Source of the DNA: Anaerolinea sp.
Lineage (GTDB): Bacteria > Chloroflexota > Anaerolineae > Anaerolineales > Anaerolineaceae
Length of the DNA stretch: 64,000 nt
Assembly: GCA_029975965.1 (NCBI GenBank)
Contig: JARKOV010000015.1
Location: 1 to 64,000, forward strand
Reading direction: 5' to 3'
Shown here in pieces: positions 30,405-37,176 of the stretch (position 1 is the first letter of the stretch; each line of letters begins with the position of its first letter). The translations under genes and the position numbers were made by a program. The notes beneath the pieces are model-generated. The model worked only from the letters and a program-made list of their open reading frames with translations, was not told the origin of the DNA and searched no databases.

Positions 30405-31088
30405 TCAGCGAGCTTCGTACCAGCGGCTCAACCTCGCAACCGCATCCTGGTAATGAGCGCCGTCCGAAGGGAAATGGTTGATCTTTAACAGGCAGAAATC
30501 CATGATACGAACGATTCGTTGCCGGGTCATTCGCTTTCCTGGGGGTGAAGATCGCGCCATCAACAGGTATTCCACCTCCGGCATTCCAGGCCCGATCGGC
30601 GGGTAGCGAAACGAAACCGGAAATGTCCTGGCGCCGAATTTCTTGTAAAACGCGATTCTTCTTTCGGCGACCTGTCGTTGTGCTTTATCCGCAAGGTGTC
30701 GCGGCGCCTGGACCTCCCAGACCACCCAATCCACCCCTGGATGCCCATTCGCCTGGCCTTGCTCATCCAGCTTATCCAGGATTTTGAGCATCAACCATTG
30801 TCCAAGCCCTTGTCCGCGGGCAGTGGGGTCAATCGCGATATATTCCAGGTAAGCCAGGTTCTCGCGAACATCATAGAGGAAATAAGCCATTCCCAAGACC
30901 CGCTGGTCACAGGTCAGCGCCCAGAAAACCCGCTCGAAATCGTCCTTTTCGCCACGGAGGCTGGAAAGCATGCTTTCGAAAGGCACCCGGTCTTCATCGG
31001 GGAACGAGGCGACATACAACCGCTGGACTTGGGCAACCAGGTCGGCAGGCGCGCCTCCCAGTGAAACGAGCTGGTATTCCGCGCTCAT
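30405..31088 (-). CDS. GNAT-family N-acetyltransferase, third gene of the radical SAM operon
   Basis: 227 residues. The acetyl-CoA motif is LEYIAIDPTARGQGLGQWLML (motif A, RGQGLG), followed by a helix and FYKKFGART near the end. The substrate is unknown: GNATs acetylate amines on metabolites, peptides or proteins. The C-terminal ~40 residues lie beyond the usual domain. The ATG overlaps the stop of the membrane protein by 4 bases, so it is translated with it and probably works in the same pathway. Confidence 0.85.
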   Translation of the reverse strand: MSAEYQLVSLGGAPADLVAQVQRLYVASFPDEDRVPFESMLSSLRGEKDDFERVFWALTCDQRVLGMAYFLYDVRENLAYLEYIAIDPTARGQGLGQWLMLKILDKLDEQGQANGHPGVDWVVWEVQAPRHLADKAQRQVAERRIAFYKKFGARTFPVSFRYPPIGPGMPEVEYLLMARSSPPGKRMTRQRIVRIMDFCLLKINHFPSDGAHYQDAVARLSRWYEAR

Positions 31089-33382
31089 GCCGCTCCTTTC
31101 TCTCCTTTTTTCCGGTTAAAGGTGAAAAACCAGGCCAGGGAGATCAATAAAACCCCTGAAAAGAAACCGATCAGGCCGGCCAATTTTAGCGTGGCGCCAT
31201 CGAATATCCATCTGCCGCCCCAAATCCAGGGCAGGGTGATGACCTGCTGATCTTCGATGACCAGCAGGCTGGCGATCGACGAGACGATCTGAGAGATACC
31301 TAGAATTTGGATGATCAACACGACCAGGCCCTCTGCGCGGGATCGATTCTGTTCCTTGATCAGGTTGAGCTCCTCATAGAGGTGCTGGCTGAACTGGCGG
31401 AAACCGTCTTGTGTTTCGATCAGGGTCTCGACCAGGTTCTCGGCCTGGACCAAAGCTCCCGGCAGGCTGACTGCCTCAGCCGTTTTTTGCAGGATCGTGC
31501 GGTATTCATCGAAACGCGTCACCCGCGCCAGATGGTTCAAATTGCGAATATTCAGCACGCTCGCCTTCAACTGGTGCAGGCGCAGGCTGTGAATTTCCTG
31601 CATTTTTAACACCTGCTTGAGAGCCTTGATCAAACCTTGCTGGTCTTTTGAGGTGAAATCGTATTCCTGCATGGTTTTTTGAAGGCCTTTAATTTCACTG
31701 TCGAGGTCAAACAGAACTCCAGATGTCAAAGCAGAAAGGTTCAAACCAAACTCGATCAGGTCCAGGTAGGTGGTCAGCACCCAACCGGCCGTGCTGGGAG
31801 CATAGATAAAGGTATGGTCACCGCTGATGAAAAACAAATCGATGTTGGCCAGGCGGCTGTCGGCGACCGCCAGGTTGGACGAAACGTCGTATGACAGCTC
31901 CATCCACGGATCCAACGAGTCGTACGACTCTTGAAGCGAAGTAGAGATTGCGGCCAGTTCGCAGCCACTCACCCACCGGGCGGCCTCGCCGGGCAGGTGC
32001 ATGCGCAGCGCCTGGATATACGTGTGGTACAGCCATGCCACACCATTTTGAGCGTCTTCTACGAGATTGCCAGTCTCCCCGGTATTGGGTTGTATTTTAT
32101 TAAAGAAGGGCAATAACCTGTCCAGCAATGAGCGCGCAATATCTTGCAGGTTCTCGAATGGGTCGGGGGACAGCCATTCCACGGAAATTTGCATGCCAGG
32201 GCTTTGCTCGGGCCCGATAAAACGCAGCAGTTGAACCTGGTGGGTCTCCAACTTGCCGGGAATATTATCGATCTGGAAATAAACCGCGACCACGCCTGAG
32301 GTGTAGAACCTTGCCATTGGCGAAGCATGGAGGGATGTTGGAAAGACAGGCAAATCAATTTGGAAAACTGGAAAAGCCAGCTCCACGTAGTTAAAATTTT
32401 CTTCTCCCAGGCTCGACGCAAAAATGTCATTCAGAACCGACGGCGTAATGTGCAACACCGGCAGGTCGATCATTTGCTCGACGCGGAAGATCCGCTCGCT
32501 GAGCAGCACATCCCTCTCCACAGGTTCCTCAGTACACAAAGCATACAGAGAACGAGCAAAACTTGCCGGAAAATGCCTTCGAAAGGTCCACGAGACGCTG
32601 ACATTTTCATAGCCGAGTAAATTCGCGGGGTTTGCCGAGAGCTCAAGGCGTTTTTGCAGCGAGCGGCGAAAAGCCAGGATTTCCTGGGCGTCAGCCGGGT
32701 CTCCCAACTGGAGCAAGTCTTCGATTCCGGCGTCGATCCGTCCCAGCAATTTTCTCGCCTGGCTGCCGGCATTCTTCTTGCGCTCAATAACAGCCTGAAA
32801 ACCTGCCAGGTAATCACGCTGGCACTCCGCGTAGAGGTATCCCGACCGACCCAATTTCACAACCAAATCGATCCAGCGCGACCGTTCGGCGTCATCGCCT
32901 CTGTCCGTTTCCATCGCCAACCGGCCCTTTTCCTCGCCCAACCGGTAAGCCCGGCTTGCCAGCTCCAACGTTCGGCAGGCGGCAGGTAAATCGTAAATCA
33001 TCCACTGCTGTTCCGACCTGACCATCTCAAGCTCACCCCTGGCAATGCAAATCATCGCCGGCAGCAATTCATAGGATGGCCCCTTCTCGAGCTGTTCCAC
33101 AACATGCTCAAAGGCATCCAAGGAGGCAGAATAATCCCAGGAGCGATACCAGAAGGCGATCGTGCCGGCGTAGCCGGCTGCCCAATCAAAATATGCCCGC
33201 CTTTCCCCTGCCGGCAAAGCCAGGCTGACTTTCTCTGCCAGGTGACTTGCCTCCGGGAATTTGCTTTCCCAGATCAGGTTTGCCACCGGCGTCGCGCAAT
33301 CTTCGGGCAGGTAGACGGGCCGCGCAACCGGGATTTCATCTGCAGAGGTTTGTGGTTTTTTCCTGGCAAATAAGCGCTTCAT
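31085..33382 (-). CDS. Large protein with C-terminal coiled coil and two membrane helices (CorA-like topology), function unknown
   Basis: 765 residues. I do not recognise the family. The N-terminal third (about 20-270) is helical and repeat-like, reminiscent of TPR (DYSASLDAFEHVVEQLEKG, ACRTLELASRAYRLGEEKG). The middle (about 290-530) is mixed alpha/beta with an aromatic, hydrophobic strand region (ARFYTSGVVAVYFQID). Residues ~560-680 look like a long helix or coiled coil, ending in two hydrophobic segments (~685-709 and ~734-756) and a basic tail. A long helix followed by two C-terminal membrane helices resembles CorA channels, but no GMN motif is present. It sits between the radical SAM and GNAT genes with 4-base overlaps on both sides. 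ATG 33382 was chosen for that overlap; the frame runs on to 33586 inside the upstream gene. Confidence 0.8.
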   Translation of the reverse strand: MKRLFARKKPQTSADEIPVARPVYLPEDCATPVANLIWESKFPEASHLAEKVSLALPAGERRAYFDWAAGYAGTIAFWYRSWDYSASLDAFEHVVEQLEKGPSYELLPAMICIARGELEMVRSEQQWMIYDLPAACRTLELASRAYRLGEEKGRLAMETDRGDDAERSRWIDLVVKLGRSGYLYAECQRDYLAGFQAVIERKKNAGSQARKLLGRIDAGIEDLLQLGDPADAQEILAFRRSLQKRLELSANPANLLGYENVSVSWTFRRHFPASFARSLYALCTEEPVERDVLLSERIFRVEQMIDLPVLHITPSVLNDIFASSLGEENFNYVELAFPVFQIDLPVFPTSLHASPMARFYTSGVVAVYFQIDNIPGKLETHQVQLLRFIGPEQSPGMQISVEWLSPDPFENLQDIARSLLDRLLPFFNKIQPNTGETGNLVEDAQNGVAWLYHTYIQALRMHLPGEAARWVSGCELAAISTSLQESYDSLDPWMELSYDVSSNLAVADSRLANIDLFFISGDHTFIYAPSTAGWVLTTYLDLIEFGLNLSALTSGVLFDLDSEIKGLQKTMQEYDFTSKDQQGLIKALKQVLKMQEIHSLRLHQLKASVLNIRNLNHLARVTRFDEYRTILQKTAEAVSLPGALVQAENLVETLIETQDGFRQFSQHLYEELNLIKEQNRSRAEGLVVLIIQILGISQIVSSIASLLVIEDQQVITLPWIWGGRWIFDGATLKLAGLIGFFSGVLLISLAWFFTFNRKKGEKGAA

Positions 33383-35769
33383 ACGATTGGAAATCCTGCT
33401 TTCACCCAACGATCTGGATCGAGTTCTAAATAATCGCGGGCGCTCAAAACCATCGCCAGCGCGCGCTCCCGTAATTTCGCACAGTCCGACGGAGGTGCAT
33501 TCAAATCGGATTGCGCTTCCCCCGGTAACCGGCTCCAGGCCCGGCAGGCGCCTCCACACAGGTAGCGCAGCGCGCATTGATGGCAAACCGGATTGCTATC
33601 TACCGTTGAATCCATTAAACCCTTGAATGCGCTCCCGGTCACAACCTGGATCACCCCCCCCATATCCAACACATTGCCCAACTTCCAGGCAGCCCCATGC
33701 CATGCATAGCATGGATACGCCGATCCGTCCGGCTCAACATACAGGTTCTGCCCGATCCCGCATGAAGCGGCGGGCAGAAATCCATAAGCCAGGCGTTCTT
33801 CCGGCCGAAGGTGCGCCCACACTGCCTGGACTTCCAGATCGGGCAGCGTGCGGGCAGCCCTGCCCAACGGAAGGATGGGGCGCATGCGCACCCGGCGGAT
33901 ACCGAGCTCGTCTGCCAGGCGGCGGACCTGTTGCCCTGGCGCGCCTTGCGCCTGAGCGATGGGCAAGACCGCGGCGAGGGAAATCTCGGCGCTTCCCCCG
34001 ATCTCGACCAAGCGTTGCAGTCGCTCTACCACTCGATCGTAGCTTCCAGCGCCGCGCCGCGCGTCGTGCGTGGTCCGGTCTCCATCCAGGCTCACCACCA
34101 CCTCGTCCGTGGCGGAGGCCACCCAGGAAAGGAGCTCGCCGTCCAATGCCGGATCGGGATGACCGTACAGGCTGGTGCGCAGCACGGTGCGCAGCGGTCT
34201 GAACCTATCCCGCAATCGGGCAAGCTCAGCCAACATGCCGGGAGCATCGGGATGAGCCAGCGGCTCTCCGCCGGTGATCACCAGGTGCCTGAAGCCCAGG
34301 TGCGCTGTTTCCCCGGCAAGGAGCTCCAGGTGATCTGGCGGGAATGCCCCATTGCGACTGCGACCGCTCTCCGCATAACAATGCGAACAACCAGATGGGC
34401 AGGTCAAAGTGACGTGCAGGTACAGGTTGTTCCGCAACGTCCTTCGAGTCGTCAACCGTTCGTGCAGGCCGCGGAGTGCCTGGCGGGTGAGCTCCGTGTC
34501 ACCTGCCAGGCCAAGGGTTGACAGGCGGTTCGCGGCATCCTCCGCTGTTCCTGAAATCGCCAGCGCCACCACGGCCACCGCCTGGCGCGCGTTCTGCCCG
34601 ATTTCGAAGGGATGCGGGCGATTGCTCATTAATTCCAGCACCCGACCCTTCTGCAACAGGCTCCGTCTCTCGTCCGGGGCATCGATCACCTGCGCCAGGT
34701 TTGCTTCGCTGAAGAACTCGGTGGTCGCAAGGTCGGTGATTCGCCGCATGAGCGCCTGGTATGCCTTGCAGTAAGGGTCGCGCAGGTCATCGCCAAACAC
34801 CGTCGCCTGGCGGTTTGCCAGCACATTATATGGGCAACCACCCCGGCACACATCCAGAAATTCGCAGCCTTCACAAGCCCGGTCAATCTGTTGTTGGCGC
34901 ATGGCAAAAGCGCCCCAGGCCGCCGACTGGCTCAAGGTCGCATACGCGTCAACCACCCCGCCCAACCGGAACGGCTCGCTACCCGCGAACCGCTGGCAAG
35001 GATACACGCTTCCATCCGGCCCTACCGCCAGGTACCCGCCCAAACAATCGCCAAAGGTGCACATGCCACCCTTGCCCCTCGATACAGAACGGATCACTGC
35101 ATCCAGGCTGGAAATGCGCACCCGTTTCAGGTTCTCCAGGTAAAAATCCAGCAAGGCACACATCAAATGCCCGTATCCCTCGCTGGTTAGCACCCAGGGT
35201 TGGGCGGCAGCCTGCCCCAAGACGGGCAGCGCGGCGTGTGTGGAAAAACTTAGCCCCTCTGCAATAAAAAATTCGGCTACTTCGCGCCAGCGCGGCGCGG
35301 ATTGGGCGGTGAAGGTGGCGATGCAGCCCACTGGTATACCCCTGGCCCGCGCCCGATCGATGGCGCTCATCGTGCGCTGAAAATAGCCTTTCCCTCGCTG
35401 CGCATCGTTGATTGCCTCCGGGCCGTCCAGGCTGGTCCCGATCGACACAGGATAAGCGCTGAACAAATCCAGGTATTCATCATCCAGGCCCCACAGGTTG
35501 CTCTGCAGAGTGAACCGCACTGGGCGCCCACTCCAGGCTGCGCTCAGTAAGGGCAAAGCGGCCTGAAAAAATTTCTTGCCGGCGGTCAACGGTTCGCCGC
35601 CATGAAAAGTCAGCTCAAGCGGTTCCGGGCTGGCCTGGCTGGAAATCCAGGCAGCCACCTGCCGGAGGGTGCGCTGGTCCATGCGCAGCCCGCCCTGGTG
35701 CGGGCCAAAACAGTAGGCACAGGTCGCCGGGCAGGCCAGCGAAGGGACCAGCAAGATGTGGCGAGTCAT
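33379..35769 (-). CDS. Tandem radical SAM/SPASM protein (two complete radical SAM units in one chain)
   Basis: 796 residues. Unit 1: CxxxCxxC at Cys13/17/20, FHGGEPL (55-61), SPASM-type cysteines at 237, 242, 258, 299, 302, 308, 312 and 334 (CEGCEFLDVCRGGC). Unit 2: Cys457/461/464, TGGEPL (499-504), SPASM-type cysteines at 670, 687, 729, 732, 738, 742 and 763 (CHQCALRYLCGGAC). Radical SAM/SPASM enzymes bind three Fe-S clusters and usually modify ribosomal peptides or mature sulfatases. The linker (~375-445) is helical and weakly resembles a PqqD-like peptide-binding fold. First gene of a three-gene operon with 4-base overlaps. A TATAAT box ends nine bases before the ATG at 35769. No sulfatase or obvious precursor peptide is adjacent. 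Confidence 0.9.
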   Translation of the reverse strand: MTRHILLVPSLACPATCAYCFGPHQGGLRMDQRTLRQVAAWISSQASPEPLELTFHGGEPLTAGKKFFQAALPLLSAAWSGRPVRFTLQSNLWGLDDEYLDLFSAYPVSIGTSLDGPEAINDAQRGKGYFQRTMSAIDRARARGIPVGCIATFTAQSAPRWREVAEFFIAEGLSFSTHAALPVLGQAAAQPWVLTSEGYGHLMCALLDFYLENLKRVRISSLDAVIRSVSRGKGGMCTFGDCLGGYLAVGPDGSVYPCQRFAGSEPFRLGGVVDAYATLSQSAAWGAFAMRQQQIDRACEGCEFLDVCRGGCPYNVLANRQATVFGDDLRDPYCKAYQALMRRITDLATTEFFSEANLAQVIDAPDERRSLLQKGRVLELMSNRPHPFEIGQNARQAVAVVALAISGTAEDAANRLSTLGLAGDTELTRQALRGLHERLTTRRTLRNNLYLHVTLTCPSGCSHCYAESGRSRNGAFPPDHLELLAGETAHLGFRHLVITGGEPLAHPDAPGMLAELARLRDRFRPLRTVLRTSLYGHPDPALDGELLSWVASATDEVVVSLDGDRTTHDARRGAGSYDRVVERLQRLVEIGGSAEISLAAVLPIAQAQGAPGQQVRRLADELGIRRVRMRPILPLGRAARTLPDLEVQAVWAHLRPEERLAYGFLPAASCGIGQNLYVEPDGSAYPCYAWHGAAWKLGNVLDMGGVIQVVTGSAFKGLMDSTVDSNPVCHQCALRYLCGGACRAWSRLPGEAQSDLNAPPSDCAKLRERALAMVLSARDYLELDPDRWVKAGFPIV

Positions 35770-35778
35770 ATCTTTACC

Positions 35779-35784
35779 ATTATA
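35779..35784 (-). promoter_or_regulatory. -10 box of the radical SAM operon
   Basis: TATAAT on the minus strand, predicted start near 35772, about three bases before the ATG: an essentially leaderless transcript. Confidence 0.5.
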
Positions 35785-35943
35785 CGGGTCGTTGCCAAAA
35801 TGGATTCTTGCAAACAATTTGCAAATTTTACCGGGGCTGGGGCACCCACAAGGAACTTTTTTATCCTTGAATCGTCATATCTACAAAGTGGCATCGGACG
35901 CAAGTTCCGCTTGCCACCGACCAGAAAGGATCGGGATTGCACA

Positions 35944-37176
35944 ATGCTTCGGAAAACAGCCATCTTACTTGTAATTGCCCTCTCTCTCATTCTATCGGCT
36001 TGCAATATGCCGGTATCACCCACTCCTAACCCGGCAAACCTGGTGGAGACTCTGGCCGCCCAGACTCTGCAGGCCATGATGACCCAAGTCTCAGCGTCGA
36101 CTCCCACGCCGGGCGGCTCGCTTGCCACGGCTACCCAGCAGGTGCTTCAGCCCAGCTCGACTCCCGCGCCGACCAATACGCAGGTGGTCCTGCCGACCAA
36201 CACCCAGGTGCCCATTCCGTGCGATGCAGCCGCCTTCGTCAGCGACATCAGCATCCCAGACGGCACGCTGGTCTCCGCCAATCAGCGCTTCACCAAGACC
36301 TGGCGCCTGAAGAACATCGGTTCCTGCACCTGGACACGCGACTACGCGCTCGCCTTTGTGGATGGGAATGCGATGGGCGCGTCCGCCGTCGTTTACCTGA
36401 CCGGCGTCGTCAGCCCGAACCAGACCGTTGACATTTCACTCGACCTGACCGCACCCAGCCAGCCCGGCTCATACCGCGGAAATTGGAAACTGCGCAATCC
36501 GCAAGGTGTCGTGTTCGGCACCGGGGCCGGGAATTTCCCCTTCTACGTCGACATCCGCGTCGGTGTGCCCGCCGGAAACGACGGGAGCAGCTACAACTTC
36601 GTTTACAACGTGTGCCAGGCCGAGTGGAGCAGCGGGGCGGGAGCACTCTCCTGCCTTGGCACCGACGGCGACAACCGCGGTTTCGTGCTGTACCAGGACC
36701 GCCCTCGCCTTGAGAACGGAAATGTGGAAGATGAACCCGCGTTGTTGACCTATCCTCAGGCGATCAACGACGGCGTCATCCGGGGAAAATACCCGGCCTA
36801 CACCGTGAAGACCGGCGATCGCTTCCGCGCCATTGTTGGATGCGAATACGACGCCCGAAACTGCAACGTGCGCTTCCAACTCGATTACCAGATCGATAAC
36901 GGCTCGATCCAGACGCTAGGATACTGGGACGAAAAGTACGAAGGCGGCTTTACCAACATCAACCTCGACTTGAATCCGCTGGCCGGGAAATCGGTGCGCT
37001 TTATCCTCACCGTGCTTGCCAACGGCTCATCCAGCGGTGACCGGGCGCAGTGGCTCATGCCACGGATTGTGAACGTCCCACCGACGGCCACGCCGACGGC
37101 AACCGCCACGTCGACGCCGACTCCAACCGCCACCACCGACCCGGCAACCGAGCCCGGCTCGTCAACCACCCAGTGA
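35944..37176 (+). CDS. Lipoprotein with NBR1-like Ig domain and Pro/Thr linkers
   Basis: 410 residues. Signal peptide with lipobox LSAC (Cys20), a Thr/Pro/Gln-rich linker (about 25-90), and an NBR1-type Ig-like domain (about 98-195: SIPDGTLVSANQRFTKTWRLKNIGSCTWT, VSPNQTVDISLDLTAPSQPGSYRGNWKL), common in secreted Chloroflexota proteins. A second beta domain (200-375) has four or more Cys and ends in a Thr/Pro tail (~378-410). A binding role at the surface is likely. The frame is open upstream to 35602, but the signal peptide fixes the ATG at 35944. It is divergent from the radical SAM operon. Confidence 0.85.
   Translation: MLRKTAILLVIALSLILSACNMPVSPTPNPANLVETLAAQTLQAMMTQVSASTPTPGGSLATATQQVLQPSSTPAPTNTQVVLPTNTQVPIPCDAAAFVSDISIPDGTLVSANQRFTKTWRLKNIGSCTWTRDYALAFVDGNAMGASAVVYLTGVVSPNQTVDISLDLTAPSQPGSYRGNWKLRNPQGVVFGTGAGNFPFYVDIRVGVPAGNDGSSYNFVYNVCQAEWSSGAGALSCLGTDGDNRGFVLYQDRPRLENGNVEDEPALLTYPQAINDGVIRGKYPAYTVKTGDRFRAIVGCEYDARNCNVRFQLDYQIDNGSIQTLGYWDEKYEGGFTNINLDLNPLAGKSVRFILTVLANGSSSGDRAQWLMPRIVNVPPTATPTATATSTPTPTATTDPATEPGSSTTQ

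Follow-up and report, generated by a model that had tools for sequence, protein, structure and literature searches.

Analyses of a 64,000-nucleotide stretch of an Anaerolinea sp. genome (contig JARKOV010000015.1, positions 1 to 64,000 of the forward strand; hereafter the window) indicated that one of its minus-strand genes encodes a 796-residue protein in which a radical SAM domain and a SPASM domain are each present twice. Based on comparison of the sequences of this protein, its relatives and their neighbors, we consider it likely that it is a two-in-one maturase that modifies protein tails bearing His-x-Asp (H-x-D) and Cys motifs, with the N-terminal half (N-half) acting at His-Asp and the C-terminal half (C-half) at Cys, and that the two genes joined to it are separate from this system. 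The gene and its parts are as follows.

33379..35769, minus strand: tandem radical SAM/SPASM protein of 796 residues (P0001), very probably a maturase; translated from the ATG at 35769 and assigned with Pfam and NCBIfam
34645..35769, minus strand: N-half, residues 1-375, TIGR04083-like radical SAM and SPASM; predicted target His-x-Asp
35710..35733, minus strand: first CxxxCxxC motif, CPATCAYC, residues 13-20
34453..34644, minus strand: linker, residues 376-439, with helices only in the structure model and without PqqD-like strands
33382..34452, minus strand: C-half, residues 440-796, second radical SAM and SPASM; predicted target the tail Cys; best sequence match in the PDB 5wgg
34378..34401, minus strand: second CxxxCxxC motif, CPSGCSHC, residues 457-464

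In the protein, Pfam identified Radical_SAM and SPASM twice each. Each half also contained seven further cysteines (C242, C258, C299, C302, C308, C312 and C334 in the N-half; C670, C687, C729, C732, C738, C742 and C763 in the C-half), whose spacing we take to be the SPASM domain pattern. Motif positions and Pfam thus confirmed the first-pass annotation in its description of two complete radical SAM units, each with SPASM-like cysteines, in one chain of 796 residues. Of the NCBIfam models, TIGR04083 scored 387.8 bits, above its cut-off of 300, with its best stretch at residues 4-365; the second-best model, TIGR03942, reached 193 bits against a cut-off of 349. A protein search with the 796-residue query gave 699 matches at E <= 0.001 among 7,990 scored sequences, and the annotated relatives were named as TIGR04083 family peptide-modifying radical SAM enzymes. 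As the 120 matches listed were all 727 to 866 residues in length, the double form is common; because the search was restricted to lengths of 0.55 to 1.75 times that of the query, single-domain relatives were outside its reach. The protein is a member of a widespread family, TIGR04083-like in its N-half, and is very probably a maturase of peptides or proteins, in support of the role first proposed for it.

The structure model of the protein (mean predicted local distance difference test score, pLDDT, 84.3; predicted template modeling score 0.78) contained the radical SAM/SPASM elements twice, with helices between them. PqqD and related RiPP recognition elements (RiPP, ribosomally synthesized and post-translationally modified peptide) are winged-helix domains with strands. 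As no strands were modeled in residues 375-445 (block pLDDT 77-93), the PqqD-like fold that had been suggested as a check for this linker is absent, the region being all helical. The best matches in fold comparisons of the model were an anaerobic sulfatase maturase, ChlB, and the entries 5why and 5wgg, both presumably structures of CteB. By sequence, the nearest solved structure to the N-half was an anaerobic sulfatase maturase, and the best PDB match to the C-half was 5wgg (E 3e-12), an entry whose title refers to the formation of a thioether bond.

The candidate substrates were identified among the genes adjoining those of the relatives. A scan of genome contigs with the radical SAM protein confirmed at least 540 relatives, of which the best 80 were kept, giving 78 loci (L numbers below). 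In many of these loci, the proteins adjoining the radical SAM gene had repeated His-x-Asp in their last 20 to 70 residues, often with SDC and often with a GIGLDFP-like end. Typically, such a tail had several His-x-Asp and usually one Cys, often in the context [SN]DC. The carrier proteins were 152 to 1037 residues in length in the open reading frames (ORFs) read, a few of which were cut by contig ends, and Pfam HEAT_2 was identified at E <= 0.001 in 30 of the 47 carriers scanned. By eye, the Clostridia carriers in L016, L017, L018, L019 and L029 appeared to be membrane proteins and not HEAT proteins; that of L018 had no Pfam family match.

The association of these tails with the enzyme was evident in a set of 71 same-strand ORFs of at least 120 residues within 250 bp of the radical SAM gene, picked without regard to the motif. 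Two or more H-x-D were present in the last 60 residues of 36 of these 71 ORFs, versus 26 of 512 other ORFs (2 of 236 for the minus-strand ORFs, a subset of the 512), and some of the 26 are putative second substrates. By these criteria, 16 of the 64 loci used lacked an adjacent ORF, and the radical SAM position of L029 was set by hand. The figure of 36 is an undercount because a six-frame pass revealed tail genes adjoining the radical SAM gene in L004 and L016 that were missing from the ORF set. The spacing of the motif was strict. There were 120 H-x-D in the 71 adjacent tails versus 21.2 in shuffles (z 22.8, uncorrected for relatedness of the loci) and 6 H-x-E versus 11.2, and there was no enrichment of H-D at gaps of 0 and 2-5. 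We cite the spacing statistics from this set since a second one, of 63 tails, was partly selected for H-x-D; in those 63, His was at 7.1 per 100 residues of tail versus 1.3 of body, and Cys at 1.9 versus 0.8.

Enzyme and tail also occurred in the same genomes (G numbers). In the order, the radical SAM protein was identified in 4 of 201 genomes (G001, G003, G007 and G008), and these four, and no others of the 201, had a tail at E <= 1e-10; weak tail matches in G132, G124 and G155 (E 0.007 to 0.010, in frames of 59 to 106 residues) were not counted. In the phylum, the protein was identified in 4 of 400 genomes (G384, G003, G225 and G473), and the tail at E <= 1e-5 in these same four. The tail profile had been built without rows from G007, G384 and G473, and G384 and G473 were new in the phylum draw. 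The two draws overlap, with G003 and G178 present in both.

The relationship between the tail Cys and the second half of the enzyme was apparent when the tandem and single-domain forms were compared. Of the 78 loci, 48 were tandem, 4 were ambiguous and 26 were single-domain, including 14 from archaea. In a tree built from 73 N-halves, 6 changes of the tandem or single label were required, at least 5 of them on well supported branches. In a first count, a Cys followed the first H-x-D in 37 of 41 tandem genomes versus 0 of 10 single-domain genomes. This count left out four frames judged to be non-carriers (L016 16755, L041 2728 on the minus strand, L032 13383 and L051 189) and the ambiguous L027, L031, L045 and L053, and merged loci of the same assembly (L030 with L026, L047 with L057). 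Added afterwards were G384 and G473, and also L016, L021 and L040, which came from the six-frame pass (ten loci, some of them single-domain) and were all tandem and all with DC. G384, which is tandem and was predicted to have the Cys, has it in both of its two tails. The totals became 41 of 45 tandem versus 1 of 11 single-domain genomes (Fisher 3e-7, with relatedness uncorrected; p 1.3e-6 if the truncated L045 is counted as single).

The cleanest case was G010, a member of the Anaerolineaceae in which an N-half-only enzyme is found in Anaerolinea gene surroundings. Its tail, HVDHQSHVDSAHSAESHRDEAYHLDTGIGL, has ES in place of the DC of the tandem Anaerolinea tails and keeps all four H-x-D. G005, which is tandem among single-domain relatives, has the Cys-free tail of those relatives and an extra tail with SSSSDC on another contig, with a single radical SAM match. 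In L062 (9743-11428), the frame of the single-domain radical SAM protein terminates with a sequence that resembles a substrate tail, GKCQVHTDEGIGVEFPT, possibly left behind when a deletion fused the linker to a neighboring Cys-bearing tail. As N-half-only genomes keep the His-x-Asp, mostly without Cys, the N-half probably acts on His-x-Asp and the C-half on Cys.

Based on these observations, we infer that the substrates would be the C-terminal tails of carriers, which are HEAT-repeat proteins and, in some Clostridia, apparently small membrane proteins. The N-half would most likely link His with the beta-carbon of the Asp at position i+2, forming a three-residue cyclophane, because the strict His-x-Asp spacing fits known SPASM cross-linking. 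SPASM enzymes join His C2 to the beta-carbon at i+2, and Tyr or Trp to the beta-carbon of Asp (PMC11002830). The C-half would most likely form a bond at the tail Cys, with a thioether as our first guess. We also entertain a fuller version that seems to us somewhat short of probable. In it, His-Asp links and Cys bridges would make the HEAT tail polycyclic, and perhaps metal-binding, with one motif for each enzyme site, and the second site and the Cys motif would have been gained or lost together several times. Such a system would be spread over many bacterial phyla and some archaea, including Asgard.

Several observations weigh against the proposed substrates and the division between the halves. 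The tail of G473, whose enzyme is an N-half only, has a Cys (HYDAQGGAGCTRPSGHADLGVAFDH), contrary to prediction, and of the two tails of L045, where the C-half is truncated, only one has a Cys. In four of the 45 tandem genomes (L008, L013, L034 and L041) no Cys follows the first H-x-D, with SSDC just before it in L013, and the tail that adjoins the tandem gene in G005 is without Cys. The 5wgg match is not specific to the C-half, as the N-half also matches this entry (E 5.5e-13) in its SPASM part. Tails were not found at 2 of the 48 tandem loci (L020 and L028, both short contigs), at 2 of the 12 non-methanogen single-domain loci (L050 and L060), or near any of the 14 archaeal single-domain loci (from methanogens and anaerobic methanotrophs, ANME); nor is there such an H-x-D tail within the 64 kb of the window. 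Finally, the whole-genome searches scored part of the first-look candidates of each genome (2 or 5 for the radical SAM protein, up to 16 or 32 for tails).

Three of the archaeal loci (L069, L072 and L077, all Methanobrevibacter) have a Cys-rich protein of 72-73 residues, zinc-ribbon-like by eye, before the single-domain TIGR04083-like gene, with no H-x-D tail near. In the Asgard archaeon Candidatus Harpocratesius (L034 7580-12343), a tandem radical SAM gene is accompanied by a HEAT protein with an H-x-D tail from which Cys is absent.

Another explanation of the tails, which we regard as unlikely but worth keeping in mind, is that they are metal-binding peptides with His, Asp and Cys as ligands, that H-x-D represents ligand spacing, and that the radical SAM enzyme acts solely on the Cys or on some other residue. 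These three residues are classic ligands, His and Cys are raised in the 63 selected tails relative to the bodies, and HxD binds iron in MNIO enzymes (PMC13060819). However, with H-x-E depleted and no other tested H/D spacing enriched, the spacing is stricter than metal sites need. The H-x-D motifs also persist in genomes with one radical SAM half and no Cys, and the co-occurrence of enzyme and tail was exact in both genome draws. Metal binding and service as a substrate motif are compatible and not exclusive roles for the tails.

The structural comparisons brought up a further candidate, a sulfatase-maturase-like enzyme that generates formylglycine at the tail Cys or Ser. The best solved relatives of the N-half are indeed anaerobic sulfatase maturases and TIGR03942 was the second-best model at 193 bits, but this is far below the cut-off of 349. 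In addition, the sulfatase motif is C-x-[PA]-x-R, which was not seen in the tail Cys contexts examined, and the tails were Cys-free in 10 of the 11 genomes with an N-half-only enzyme. We consider this activity very improbable and favor cross-linking of the tails. A role in anti-phage defence was also considered and rejected, as PADLOC gave only weak matches (viperin-like for the radical SAM protein and HEAT models for the tail protein).

Two further genes on the minus strand of the window are joined to the radical SAM gene.

31085..33382, minus strand: membrane protein of 765 residues, near-orphan and without H-x-D; judged to be outside the radical SAM system
30405..31088, minus strand: GNAT acetyltransferase of 227 residues, the partner of the membrane protein in G178; judged to be outside the radical SAM system

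The coordinates bore out the two 4-base overlaps of the first-pass annotation, at 33379-33382 (radical SAM and membrane protein) and 31085-31088 (membrane protein and GNAT), and because of these overlaps the three genes are probably co-transcribed. The overlaps favor a single functional operon, as was originally envisaged, in which the membrane protein, or a lipid or peptide together with it, is the target of the radical SAM enzyme and the last step falls to the GNAT. We nevertheless consider such an operon highly unlikely. The three-gene combination did not recur in any of the 78 loci, where no called ORF resembled the membrane protein or the GNAT (phmmer, E <= 1) other than those of the window itself; this is the outcome that the first-pass annotation had named as refuting its reading, the three genes not being conserved together in related genomes. 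The rows nearest to the window enzyme on the N-half tree were L002 and L001 (both Anaerolinea) and L025, all without the other two genes. In L001 and L002, the tandem gene lies between the same surrounding genes on both sides, with a different gene, presumably that of an acylase-like protein, downstream on the opposite strand; in L025, the surroundings are kept on the lipoprotein side only. Neither the membrane protein nor the GNAT looks like a substrate, as the count of H-x-D is zero in both, and the membrane protein was rejected as the target of the enzyme, a role it had been offered at first.

The membrane protein and the GNAT instead form a pair of their own. The only relative of the 765-residue protein in the 201 genomes of the order was in G178 (29% identity), where the next gene encodes a GNAT 32% identical to that of the window (both genes at L139 715-3792), and with the pair as a profile this same genome was the only one found in 400 of the phylum. 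G178 had no match to the radical SAM protein and none to the tail, so the GNAT is not supported as a second modifying enzyme of that pathway. The pair is a two-member family in the genomes searched, with no role assigned; in the window its genes are probably on the radical SAM transcript, yet part of another, rare two-gene unit, and seem to be unrelated neighbors of the enzyme. The window GNAT passed three Pfam acetyltransferase cut-offs. No Pfam or NCBIfam model scored above its cut-off against the membrane protein, a protein database search with it returned only itself, and its AlphaFold model was unusable (mean pLDDT 45.8). The signature of CorA is GxN, which was absent from the C-terminal sequence of the protein, where two hydrophobic stretches were seen by eye. 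The CorA topology ascribed to it earlier is then a likeness in shape at best, and CorA identity was rejected as there was neither a family match nor the signature.

Three Anaerolinea genomes with the tandem enzyme share tails like HVDHNSHVDSVRSSDCHRDETYHLDTGIGL, the ends being EKHVDHNSHVDSVRSSDCHRDETYHLDTGIGLDMPVK in G001, EKHVDHESHVDNVRSSDCHRDESYHLDTGIGLDFK in G002 and EAHADHQSHVDNVRSSDCHRDEMYHLDTGIGLPFPTE in G003. In each of them, the tail gene is far from the radical SAM gene and is followed by an ABC exporter-like gene, as checked by Pfam and NCBIfam on the L144 copy. The substrate of the window organism is therefore expected elsewhere in its genome, adjoining an ABC exporter as in these relatives, through which the tail might be exported. 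The observation that no transporter adjoins the window radical SAM gene stands for that gene itself; the probable substrate gene of its relatives does adjoin one, elsewhere in the genome. An HxDxGxG DNA pattern matched 7 to 35 times per genome in 11 genomes versus 1 to 7 times for the backward control, which is noisy and serves as a pointer to location only.

Comparison with known systems revealed partial likenesses. The resemblance to the TIGR04083 family consists of the N-half score above cut-off and the annotation of relatives. That model covers residues 4-365, whereas here a second complete radical SAM/SPASM unit is in the same chain, and the family name says nothing of the double form or of an H-x-D partner. 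The CteB-type thioether maturases (5wgg, 5why) provided the best sequence match of the C-half; their substrate, the SCIFF peptide, is unlike the tails, in which the Cys context is varied, with [SN]DC common. FbiC, a fusion of two radical SAM domains that makes a cofactor precursor from small molecules, is similar by description only, in having two such domains per chain. As described in one report, FxS-type systems have a variable body, a conserved C-terminal motif and a SPASM radical SAM enzyme, as here, but the motif is FxSxx rather than H-x-D with Cys and the enzyme is not tandem (PMC7159879). The vWA-MoxR or peptidase context given there was not noticed in the loci read, in which no search was aimed at it.

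A further parallel is with the triceptide enzymes, or three-residue cyclophane-forming enzymes (3-CyFE), such as XncB, OscB, HaaB, YhhB and YxdB. In these SPASM radical SAM enzymes, the side chain of an aromatic residue is linked to the beta-carbon at i+2, and the known partners include His and Asp (PMC11002830). The system described here shares with them a SPASM-type enzyme and an aromatic-x-partner motif (i, i+2), the latter in the tails of relatives and not in the window. It differs in that the tails are on larger HEAT or membrane proteins and not on a short precursor peptide, in the two radical SAM units per chain, and in the pair, predicted to be His-x-Asp, as is the cross-link itself. 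In the literature searched, whose scope excluded most subscription papers, there was no mention of TIGR04083 and no paper on HEAT repeats and radical SAM enzymes with a cyclophane or RiPP precursor. Cross-linking of His/Asp-rich protein tails was not found described and may be in print elsewhere. With the reading proposed here, a named but unexplained family (TIGR04083 and its tandem form) gains a concrete substrate class and a testable two-site division of labor. If the reading is true, large scaffold proteins join short peptides as targets of radical SAM cross-linking, at their tails and through a new His-x-Asp motif. The genomes G001 and G010 are a natural pair, which offers a ready-made swap experiment.

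Two other neighboring genes were observed. A lipoprotein gene (window 35602-37176) is divergent from the radical SAM gene, and a similar one is at the same place in L001, L002, L025 and L042; its recurrence is probably mere synteny. In L031, L053, L054 (8060-8650) and L064 (16226-16801), a small AAA_28-type NTPase, assigned by Pfam for the L054 copy, follows the tail or radical SAM gene.

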